Positions 36,864 through 39,138 of a DNA stretch of 64,000 nt are shown here, in pieces. How positions within the stretch are numbered: position 1 is the stretch's first letter; each line of letters opens with the position of its first letter. The translations under genes and the position numbers were made by a program. The DNA comes from Actinokineospora enzanensis DSM 44649. GTDB lineage: Bacteria > Actinomycetota > Actinomycetes > Mycobacteriales > Pseudonocardiaceae. The notes beneath the pieces were generated by a model. It was given only the letters and a program-made list of their open reading frames with translations, searched no databases and was not told the DNA's origin. Location of the stretch: NCBI RefSeq assembly GCF_000374445.1, contig NZ_KB894426.1:62001-126000 (forward strand). The letters run 5' to 3'.

Positions 36864-38417
36864 TCAGAACGGCCAGTCGGCCGTCCGACCCGACTCCAGC
36901 AGCGGGATCGCGCGGAACGCGGCGTCCGACAGACCACCGAAGGTGTGTCGGTTGTCCATTCCGGACTGTGCATGGCCGACGCCGTAGCCCACCAGGTTCC
37001 AGGTGTAGACCGGGATGTCCGCGGGCACCAGCAAGGTCGGGTCGTATCCGTTCGTGTACTGCTCATCCGTCACGATCACCACCCGGTCGTGCCCCCGGTA
37101 GTGCTCCCGGATCGCCGACGGCGTGTCGGTGCCGCCGAGATCGTGGAAGCGACCGTCGACCGCGCGCAGCAGGGACTCACGCGGACGGAGGTGCACGGGC
37201 TGACTGGTCGACCCGAACTCCACCAGGTCCGCGTGCGCGGCCCGCAGTGCCAGGGCCGAGCCGAACAGGGCGCCGGTGTCGGCCCAGGTGAGCTCGGAGC
37301 GGCCGGAGGTCCGGGACCAGAACATCGACCCGGAGCGGTCCACCAGCACCAGCGTCCGCCCCGGCAGGGCCGGGACGTTGGCCAGTGCCGACTCCAGCGC
37401 GCGCTCCAGCGGGTACGCCCATCGCGCCGACGCGGCCCGGTAGGCCGACAGGAACCGCATCGGCAGCTGGCGGGAGCGGGCGACCTCCGCCGGGTCGGCG
37501 AGCCGGGCCGCGACCCGGGCGGCGGCCTCGTCGGAGACCTCCGCCGCGTCGAAGTTGCGGAGGTTGCGCAGCAGGGCCATGTATCCCATCGACGGGATGA
37601 GCGACTCCCACACCCGCGCGGTCAGCGGACCCTGCAGCCAACCGGCCACCGATTCCCACGTCATACCCGCACTTCGTAACGTCTCCACGGCGTCGTCGCG
37701 CGCGAACAGCTCCGCGCGCTCCGCCACCGGTACCGCCATCAGCGCGGCGCGCGCGGTCAGCACGGGCAGCCCTGCCGGTACACCGTCCGCATTGTCGTGC
37801 CGCAGATCCAGCGCGTGCCGGAACAGCTCGCCCTGCCACGGCGCGCGCGGCGACGGGTGGGCGAGGTCGAGCACGTCGGCGAAGCGGAACGCGTGGCTGT
37901 CGCCGTCCCACTTCAGCAGCGCGCGCTCGTCGTACAGGCGCGCGGCCGCGTCGGCGATACCGCGCTTGACCGGCTTGGGCACCGCGCGGCCGCACGTGGA
38001 GATCCAGTACGCGAGCAGCTCCCCCGGCTCGTCGGCGCGCAGCAGCACGGAATCGATCACCTGCCGGGACCGGCCGGGCAGGCCCGCGTCCAGGCGCGCC
38101 TTGGCGAACTCGGCCGCGCCCACCAGGGACGCGGAGCGCAGGCTGGCCTCGGCGCGCAGCCAGCGCAGCAGGCGCGCGGTCCAGTCCGGGTCGGCGACCG
38201 TCGCCGCGCGCACCAGCTCCGCGTAGCGCTCGTCGCGGGAACCGGCCGACTCGTGGAAAGTACGCTCGCCGGCCATGTTGGACACAGCCAGCAGGAACAG
38301 CTCGCCGCGCAGGTCGCGCGCGTGGCCGGGACGGCCCGCGTGGTTGGGCTCGCGGTCGGTGGTGACGACCGGCGAGCGGACGGCCGGGCGCACGCCGACC
38401 TTGTTGAACTTGGACAT
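36864..38417 (-). CDS. rsr: TROVE-domain Ro60 orthologue (Rsr)
   Basis: A 517-residue ring-shaped RNA-binding protein. The N-terminal TROVE region is made of helical repeats (RLLRWLRAEASLRSASLVGAAEFAKARL; VIDSVLLRADEPGELLAYWISTCGR; MGYMALLRNLRNFD). The C-terminal von Willebrand A domain has the MIDAS motif LVDRSGSM (about residue 359) and a TDEQY segment. Bacterial Rsr binds Y RNA and works with exoribonucleases in RNA quality control and stress survival. Start ATG 38417. A Y-RNA-like sequence lies 60 bp upstream on the same strand, the arrangement known for rsr-yrlA loci. Confidence 0.93.
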   Translation of the reverse strand: MSKFNKVGVRPAVRSPVVTTDREPNHAGRPGHARDLRGELFLLAVSNMAGERTFHESAGSRDERYAELVRAATVADPDWTARLLRWLRAEASLRSASLVGAAEFAKARLDAGLPGRSRQVIDSVLLRADEPGELLAYWISTCGRAVPKPVKRGIADAAARLYDERALLKWDGDSHAFRFADVLDLAHPSPRAPWQGELFRHALDLRHDNADGVPAGLPVLTARAALMAVPVAERAELFARDDAVETLRSAGMTWESVAGWLQGPLTARVWESLIPSMGYMALLRNLRNFDAAEVSDEAAARVAARLADPAEVARSRQLPMRFLSAYRAASARWAYPLERALESALANVPALPGRTLVLVDRSGSMFWSRTSGRSELTWADTGALFGSALALRAAHADLVEFGSTSQPVHLRPRESLLRAVDGRFHDLGGTDTPSAIREHYRGHDRVVIVTDEQYTNGYDPTLLVPADIPVYTWNLVGYGVGHAQSGMDNRHTFGGLSDAAFRAIPLLESGRTADWPF

Positions 38418-38476
38418 CGTTTTCCCCCAAGGAATCCCGAGGGAGGAACCCTGGGCGCGATCCGAGATCAAGGGTC

Positions 38477-38579
38477 GGCGACGGCTTCGTGCTCTGCCGC
38501 TGAGCTACACCTCCACCTTGGTGGAGGTGGTGGGGATCGAACCCACGACCCCGTCGTTAGAAGCGAAGTAGCCGTTGCC
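38477..38579 (-). ncRNA. yrlA: Y RNA (YrlA-like) with a circularly permuted tRNA-like domain
   Basis: Read on the minus strand, the order is permuted relative to a tRNA. T-stem and loop come first (GTGGG 38546-38542, TTCGATC, CCCAC), then the acceptor 3' strand CACCTCC, then A and CCA. After a short AGGT the acceptor 5' strand GGAGGTG follows (38514-38508), then TA, then the D-arm GCTC-AGCGGCA-GAGC (38505-38491). The ends pair with each other: CGAAG (38489-38485) with CTTCG (38568-38564), CCGT with ACGG, and GCC with GGC, leaving a CTA bulge. This end helix is where Ro/Rsr is expected to bind. Boundaries are the paired ends; the transcript may be longer. Bacterial Y RNAs mimicking tRNA next to rsr are established; the assignment here is from structure only. 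Confidence 0.85.
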
Positions 38580-39138
38580 TGCGCACCGGATCGCGTCCGG
38601 GCCCTCCCGAGTTCACCGGACACCCTACGGTCGTTTCCTCTTGCAGAAGTATCCGTCGGGCCTCGCACCGGGAGTGCGCGCCGAGCGTAGGTCGGCGAAC
38701 CCCGTTGCGGCGAGCGAGTTTCCCCGGACACCGTCCGGCGAAGACGATCTTGGTACCCGAATTGATCATAACGCGGGGCTATGAGGGATTGGGATGGGTG
38801 CGCCGCGCGGGGATCCGGCATGCTCAAGTCACCCTGCACCACTCCGATCGGAGCGTGGACGGCCGCCGCGGAAACCGGCCGTCGGCTCCGGGCCCCGGGC
38901 CACCCGAATGGTGGGTCGGCCACGGGTACGGGCCGGACACGCGACCTACGCCCTGCGTGTCCGGCCTCGCCGGGTTCCTCCCCCAGTACCGCAGGACACC
39001 GCCGGGTGATCACCGCACGCGACCGTCAACCGTCGTAGACCAACACGCGTGGCCGCGCGGATCACCGGATCGGACCAATCCGCATCAGAGCGTCGCTTGA
39101 ACACCGTGCAAAATCGTTCGCCGTACGGTTGGCGTGCG
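38580..39138. other. Upstream region of the Y RNA, with a partly duplicated segment
   Basis: A gap of about 560 bp with no gene I can support. On the minus strand, the stretch around 38600-38570 (GGTGCG-AGGC-ACGGCTACTTC) and one about 85 bp upstream (38675-38640, GGTGCGAGGC...ACGGATACTTC) are alike. GTGTCCGG-GAA-ACTCG is also found twice. This suggests a degenerate duplication of the Y RNA 5' side. The region probably holds the promoters of the Y RNA and rsr. Confidence 0.5.

Follow-up and report, generated by a model that had tools for sequence, protein, structure and literature searches.

What kind of RNA lies in front of the Ro60-type gene of Actinokineospora enzanensis DSM 44649, and how much of a tRNA does it copy? 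In the present study, we analyzed a window of 64,000 nucleotides (contig NZ_KB894426.1, positions 62,001 to 126,000), in which a first-pass annotation had noted a permuted tRNA-like structure next to an rsr gene and had taken it for the Y RNA of the encoded TROVE protein. The position of the structure, its co-occurrence with rsr and its covariation supported this assignment, and the stretch 38447-38603 is very probably, as judged from sequence comparison, the Y RNA of the adjacent TROVE protein. We consider it likely that the locus is a two-RNA Y RNA locus of a Ro60-type protein, of which the longer RNA is a complete circularly permuted tRNA mimic that probably serves as an effector module of Rsr.

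The rsr Gene and Its Protein

The rsr gene (36864-38417, minus strand, ATG at 38417) encodes a Ro60-type protein of 517 amino acids that contains the stretch DRSGSM. The reading frame from 38471 matched the TROVE domain PF05731 with 61.4 bits (cut-off 23) over 63 residues, and the cut-off of the NCBIfam Rsr equivalog was missed (31.2 bits versus 900). It was observed that this gene is the sole TROVE match in the 8.1 Mb genome. At E<=1e-40, rsr was found in 8 of 396 genomes of a phylum sample and in 40 of 397 genomes of an order sample; at E<=1e-20, it was found in 39 of 200 family genomes. The rsr locus of one family genome (G141) was 100% identical to an Amycolatopsis record, and that of another was 89% like a Saccharothrix locus.

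Structure of the tRNA-Like Element

The whole element spans 157 nt (38447-38603, minus strand) and scored 122.1 bits with model R2 and 120.4 bits with model R1, the window copy itself being among the training sequences. Its relatives were compared in alignment A1, which holds 37 of 60 elements; the 23 omitted were mostly proximal (open-type) Streptomyces copies plus some others, so the A1-based pairing counts lean to the closed type. The 5' and 3' ends of the element pair into a bulged basal stem. In the basal helix P1, the 5' strand CGCGAUCCG (38587-38595) pairs with the 3' strand CGGAUCGCG (38456-38464); in A1, 76% of its cells were paired, and 10 of 12 pairs changed on both sides. Next to P1 lies an internal loop, of which the 5' side GUGCGCA (38580-38586), largely invariant in A1, is presumed to be the Rsr-binding element. 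Its 3' side GACCCUUGAUCU (38465-38476) includes GAUCUC, which was kept in most A1 rows and in most rows of the small elements described below. Helix P2, formed by the strands before tRNA position 29 and after position 28, pairs GGCAACGGC (38571-38579) with GCCGUCGCC (38477-38485), with one A-C mismatch; both-sided changes were found at 9 of 11 pairs in A1, two of the pairs lying outside these strands. The pairing of the outer ends noted by the first-pass annotation was thereby borne out, as P1 and P2 both exist and covary.

Within this stem, the parts of a tRNA follow one another in permuted order on the minus strand. In tRNA numbering, the anticodon hairpin comes first (29-41, UCG-CUUCUAA-CGA, 38554-38566), with UCG at 29-31, the loop CUUCUAA at 32-38 and the letters UCU at 34-36; C42 and G43 (38552-38553) complete CGACG at 39-43 and pair with positions 28 and 27 behind the D-arm. 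The variable loop GGGUC (44-48, 38547-38551), whose position 48 pairs with position 15, is followed by the T-arm (49-65, loop UUCGAUC, 38530-38546). Then come the 3' strand of the acceptor stem (66-72, 38523-38529), the closed acceptor end ACCAAGGU (38515-38522), which consists of A73, CCA and the linker AGGU, and the 5' strand of the acceptor stem GGAGGUG (1-7, 38508-38514), which covaried in A1, 6 of 7 acceptor pairs having changed on both sides. U8-A9 lead into the D-arm (10-25, 38491-38505), whose stem was invariant in A1 and is thus conserved there without offering a covariation test. A26 and the positions C27 and G28 (38488-38489), which belong to the nicked anticodon stem and showed compensatory changes, close the module. 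The T-arm, the acceptor 3' strand, A73 with CCA (38522-38519), the acceptor 5' strand and the D-arm (38546-38530, 38529-38523, 38514-38508 and 38505-38491) agreed with the first-pass annotation in order, strand and core coordinates; the extent proved longer than it had given, covering 38447-38603 plus a tandem element at 38604-38674.

When re-ordered, the window element gave a cloverleaf of 72 nt in which five anticodon pairs are Watson-Crick. The structure exceeds what chance would give, as shown by the fold of the single strand 38421-38620 (z = -3.5) and by the covariation in A1 described below. The minimum-energy helix UUCG/CGAA behind the D-arm was not common to the relatives, a 4-bp Watson-Crick version being possible in 1 of 67 dereplicated elements.

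Anticodon Arm Formed by a Nicked Stem

Positions 27-28 follow the D-arm and positions 29-31 precede the anticodon loop, which places the opening of the chain, in tRNA numbering, between 28 and 29. The first-pass annotation had held that no anticodon loop closes, which turned out to be wrong, since a nicked stem of five pairs showed compensatory changes throughout. These changes were counted by parsimony as paired-to-paired double changes on a tree of rsr proteins from 84 loci. The double changes (one-sided changes in parentheses) numbered 11 (0) for 27-43, 7 (3) for 28-42, 11 (3) for 29-41, 7 (0) for 30-40 and 18 (0) for 31-39; the 84 loci had been picked for the upstream-reading pairing of 27-31 with 39-43, which biases the counts for pairs 29-41 to 31-39 and leaves those for the nicked pairs 27-43 and 28-42 free of bias. 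With positions 29-31 taken from behind the D-arm, 1, 0 and 1 double changes were counted, and shifted controls gave 2, 2 and 0. These results indicated, at the level of sequence comparison, that an anticodon arm is present, with exact tRNA spacing and five pairs backed by compensatory changes. An arm closed wholly from the 5' strand (break 26/27) was rejected, as the upstream partners for 27 and 28 gave 1 and 2 double changes versus 11 and 7. The earlier statement that a normal tRNA cannot be built held insofar as ARAGORN made no tRNA call within the window, and the element as it lies was absent from the 53 tRNA (RF00005) matches of the genome; it failed insofar as the anticodon arm does close, using 27-28 behind the D-arm.

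The position of the break was examined in 188 elements, which remained after 15 of 203 model matches without a recognizable module were dropped. Perfect five-pair stems were formed in 69 of the 188 with the break after 28, in 61 with the break after 27 and in 20 with the break after 30 (slid controls 2-25). When stems lacking one pair were counted as well (4 or 5 of 5 pairs), the break after 30 exceeded that after 28 (110 versus 94 of 188; 53 versus 40 of 90), a lead that may be caused by the mix of open and closed forms; the mean number of pairs in the 90 dereplicated elements was equal for breaks 28 and 29 (3.39 and 3.40). Among these 90 elements, dereplicated at 85%, the arm was closed in 38, the stem was open (the form as read in Rfam YrlA) in 31, and neither form was seen in 21. 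Streptomyces loci often carry both forms, with the closed one farther from the gene.

The loop of the arm resembled that of a tRNA. In the 69 elements with all five nicked pairs, which were chosen by the stem alone and not dereplicated, we found U33 in 68, C32 in 66, A38 in 66, a purine at 37 in 63, U36-A37 in 44 and A34 in 0, and the 15-48 pair was present in 69 of 69. The letters U36-A37 are those of t6A-type loops. The 38 dereplicated closed-form elements had U33 in 33, C32 in 32, A38 in 35 and the 15-48 pair in 35. This tertiary (Levitt) pair was G-C in 68 and A-U in 50 of 120 elements (together 118 of 120), and ten G-C to A-U changes were counted on the rsr tree. The 5-nt variable loop mostly read NGGUC among the elements. 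On the same tree, position 34 changed 24 times and position 35 changed 32 times, while position 33 changed ten times and position 38 six times; the anticodon as a whole changed 54 times over the 84 loci, with 24 different anticodons. A loop that is tRNA-like with an anticodon that is free to vary speaks against a role in decoding, and equally against one partner that recognizes a particular anticodon.

Energy folding with ViennaRNA did not favor the anticodon arm. The upstream-closed inner anticodon pairs exceeded a probability of 0.5 in only 6 of 38 elements, and forcing the arm in the window cost 2.3 kcal/mol above the minimum for the inner pairs and 8.1 kcal/mol for the whole nicked stem, in calculations without tertiary terms and, for the latter figure, also without coaxial terms. 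In the same folding, the T-arm and D-arm reached mean probabilities of just 0.68 and 0.49. ARAGORN read the re-ordered window copy as tRNA-Arg(UCU), and it called 80 of 90 re-ordered closed-class elements; calls were nearly as many with the letters 27-43 shuffled (70-79) and in the open class (71 of 98), so a call on a re-ordered element proves nothing. The anticodon position agreed in 74 of 80 closed-class calls versus 4 of 71 open-class calls. On the elements as they lie, tRNA genes were called in 30 of 90 of the closed class versus 3 of 98 others.

Comparison with YrlA

The window RNA resembles YrlA (RF02553; Salmonella YrlA, structure 6CU1) in that it adjoins rsr, has a bulged basal stem and carries permuted tRNA arms (T-arm, acceptor with a closed end, D-arm); the accessible parts of PMC11472068 and PMC8394870 describe YrlA as circularly permuted with respect to tRNA. 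A covariance search with the Rfam YrlA model, suggested in the first-pass annotation, gave a full-length alignment in the window, but its 31.9 bits fell 37 bits short of the gathering score of 69, a score reached in 0 of 16 relatives and in none of 8 further loci. The Rfam consensus passes from the stem to the T-arm without an anticodon hairpin and is read as open at the anticodon, whereas the window RNA opens at 28/29 and has a complete anticodon arm. A stem that continues directly to where the anticodon stem would be, with no loop, was not seen in the window and was found in the open-form relatives. In the accessible parts of the literature searched, which did not extend to the primary papers, no bacterial Y RNA was found to have an anticodon arm, a result that does not prove novelty.

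It is unlikely that the element is an ordinary YrlA-type Y RNA, in which only the T-, D- and acceptor arms matter and the hairpin belongs to the Rsr-binding stem. Such an RNA would be consistent with the full-length alignment, with the open and neither-form elements, with the energy folding and with the UACUUC before the hairpin, a sequence shared by small Y RNAs that lack the tRNA module. It would leave the tRNA-exact spacing, the length of the variable loop and the conservation of U33, A38 and C32 beside the fast-changing positions 34-35 without an explanation; moreover, the pairs 27-43 and 28-42 close the stem against the D-arm, and the Rfam consensus has no room for an arm between the stem and the T-arm.

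Conservation and Linkage to rsr

A pattern script applied to the sequence upstream of rsr in 110 loci (the duplicate L001 excluded) detected modules scoring at least 15 in 95 of them, with 120 modules in all. At E<=1e-8, model R1 matched 96 of 99 and 44 of 47 loci, that is, 140 of 146; 145 of the 146 loci had been fetched by their rsr and one (L127) by model R1 itself, all R1 training sequences come from tested loci, and some loci are near-duplicates. No R1 match at this threshold was obtained in six loci (L003, L079, L094, L139, L142 and L152), among which L079 and L094 had weak matches of 34 bits. At several rsr loci (L131:3929-4048 and, similarly, L016, L021, L022, L023 and L028), the Y RNAs were shorter, measuring about 120 nt; the alignment of L131 kept the T-arm and acceptor, with little or no D-arm.

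In the family genomes, full-length matches of at least 85 bits were found in 31 of 39 rsr-positive and 0 of 161 rsr-negative genomes. Eight rsr-positive genomes remained under 85 bits; in five of them, the match at the rsr locus scored 54-60 bits. Among the rsr-negative genomes, G030 scored highest, with a full-length match of 63.3 bits (L128:5180-5336) where no tRNA was called; it may be an orphan Y RNA or a case in which rsr is too distant to be found. It was one of three R1 matches opened in rsr-negative genomes; another lay on two adjacent tRNA genes, and the third overlapped a called tRNA-Asp. The results showed that the element is encoded beside the Ro60/Rsr gene and that the two occur together.

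Compensating changes in the stems of relatives, the lack of which the first-pass annotation had named as grounds for abandoning the assignment, were plentiful. With the nicked anticodon stem, A1 contained 44 pairs, of which 88.8% of cells were paired and 32 pairs changed on both sides. The 278 double-change cells compared with a mean of 92.5 in shuffles (reached in 0 of 500) and 50-82 in slid versions. Similarly, the covariation score was 0.457 versus 0.138 in shuffles (0 of 500 reached it) and 0.049-0.099 when slid.

A cis-acting leader, that is, a 5' UTR structure through which Rsr would control its own mRNA without a separate RNA being made, is quite improbable in our estimation. The element runs from 38603 down to 38447 and ends 29 nt before the rsr ATG on the same strand, and no terminator-like site was found in 38200-38900, as a leader would have it. 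A sigma-70-like promoter was not found either, and a loose promoter pattern was equally rare near the elements and in the control (1 of 188 versus 1 of 188); the missing promoter and terminator patterns count against a free Y RNA. A leader would not account for modules as distant from the gene as about 600 nt, for two or three model matches in 60 of 140 loci, or for a copy in this genome on a contig without a TROVE match. The Y RNA that we favor would instead be transcribed as a free RNA.

Small Tandem Y RNA

Directly upstream of the tRNA-like Y RNA, a small element of 71 nt (38604-38674, minus strand) carries the Ro-stem hallmarks GGUGCG, UACUUC and CUCGG and no tRNA module. Of 188 tRNA-like elements, 70 had the hallmark pattern in the 220 nt upstream, compared with 0 on the opposite strand and 0 in each of 5 shuffles. 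Among 65 distinct small-element finds, 55 were at most 76 nt long, and 10 were longer, several with T-arm-like letters. A consensus fold built from 27 of 32 small elements had 4 of 13 pairs changed on both sides. Because the small elements had been searched for by these hallmarks, finding them shared adds no evidence; additional proof comes from GAUC ahead of CUCGG and from the covariation of the upper pairs. Together with a Bifidobacterium plasmid, in which only the basal stem matched, behind its gene, the small tandem elements suggested a modular build. Two Y RNAs with rsr are likewise found in Salmonella rsr-yrlBA-rtcBA, according to the accessible part of PMC7790460; here, by contrast, the only RtcB match of the genome lies on a different contig than rsr.

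Closed Acceptor End and Possible Origin

The first-pass annotation had given weight to the encoded CCA as a handle for tRNA enzymes. Of 188 acceptor linkers, 14 contained N73 plus CCA, and the window CCA was drawn into the acceptor hairpin, extending it, in the energy fold. The CCA/RNase P idea was rejected because the encoded CCA is not conserved. The acceptor linker measured 2-8 nt in 175 of 188 elements.

A second tRNA-like copy was detected in the genome on contig C14 (71646-71816, minus strand; L127:7647-7817) with 110.6 bits. It keeps all five anticodon pairs with different letters, reads GCA at 34-36 and has a Glu-like D-arm; the ORFs just after it are presumably egtA/egtB.

It is highly improbable that the element, as a circularly permuted tRNA gene, yields a working tRNA after processing. 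It does possess complete tRNA parts, the window encodes A73-CCA before G1, and the non-discriminating ARAGORN call on the re-ordered copy would agree. Against it stand the 54 changes of anticodon, the normal tRNA-Arg(UCU) and tRNA-Cys(GCA) already present in the genome, and the CCA that is not kept. The permuted tRNA genes of algae and archaea share with the element a complete tRNA in permuted order; they differ in their junction sites (20/21, 37/38, 50/51 and 59/60), their BHB motifs and their mature tRNA product, as given in the accessible part of PMC3978253.

A remnant of tandem tRNA genes or a permuted tmRNA has a negligible chance of being correct: several blastn matches of the element in phage records sit on the junctions of neighboring tRNA genes and tmRNA_permuted (RF04321) gave 29.5 bits in the window, yet the latter is below the gathering score of 47, the genome carries a normal tmRNA (127.3 bits), and the covariation extends over many genera. 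This covariation refutes a decaying remnant and leaves tandem tRNA genes as a possible origin. An origin from neighboring tRNA genes would explain both the permuted order and the occasional CCA. No clear parent was found among the tRNAs of the genome, the nearest being 69-70% identical.

Proposed Role of the tRNA Mimic

For the complete tRNA mimic, we propose that Rsr would hold the basal stem, in which the conserved internal loop lies (GGUGCG..G / GAUCUCGG). The chain would enter at tRNA position 29 and pass through the anticodon loop, variable loop and T-arm to the acceptor, where it would turn in a short loop with no free CCA and return via the D-arm to position 28. The upper part would fold like an L-shaped tRNA with the anticodon loop exposed, and charging would be impossible. 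With all tRNA parts permuted and the amino-acid end sealed, the RNA looks like a tRNA decoy outside protein making.

By analogy with other systems, the RNA would most likely be the effector module of the Rsr ribonucleoprotein, binding tRNA-handling proteins or PNPase next to Rsr. As for other bacterial Y RNAs, its role would be the tethering or gating of RNA decay or repair; by its anatomy, the RNA should act like these Y RNAs, the anticodon arm offering one more surface for recognition. The accessible parts of PMC7790460 and PMC8394870 report that the Deinococcus Y RNA tethers Rsr to PNPase, and a similar role is presumed here by analogy. In addition, YrlA is modified by tRNA enzymes (PMC8394870, accessible part), and Mycobacterium smegmatis has a Y RNA (PMC4726728, a review, accessible part). 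It is possible, though doubtful, that the RNA serves as bait, attracting anticodon nucleases, loop modifiers or other enzymes that recognize the anticodon loop, and thereby senses or buffers attacks on tRNA.

Bacterial Y RNAs were previously known to copy part of a tRNA. A copy of a whole tRNA with the anticodon arm makes the target of the mimicry directly testable, and any protein that requires the anticodon loop becomes a candidate partner. The models made here detect a group that is missed by the Rfam gathering score.

Copies on Phages and Plasmids

An rsr match was present in 48 phage records. Seven of them were opened (Streptomyces, Gordonia and Arthrobacter phages), and each had at least one full-length model match. 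In GiJojo, Atuin and BRock, rsr and such RNAs lie beside tRNA arrays. These elements can be mistaken for tRNA genes in annotation, and two phage records list them as tRNA-Arg. GenBank and ARAGORN both give a Y RNA-like element of Gordonia phage VanLee (L113:2204-2275) as tRNA-Arg(tct) and one of Streptomyces phage GiJojo (L112:2269-2343) as tRNA-Arg(cct). Streptomyces phage FlowerPower (L213:1498-1571), whose record is absent from the 13 of Streptomyces phages that matched rsr, carries an unannotated permuted T-arm, acceptor and D-arm within a tRNA array (38 bits). In Streptomyces phage Kela (L116:1729-4165), an RNA ligase gene adjoins rsr, and a permuted element lies upstream.

Five plasmids were opened. 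The Allomeiothermus plasmid locus had no model match, and a Streptomyces plasmid had a weak one (28.4 bits). Strong matches were found in the Deinococcus taeanensis and Rhodococcus plasmids; in the former, a relative of the structure lies upstream of a TROVE gene with 90.8 bits.
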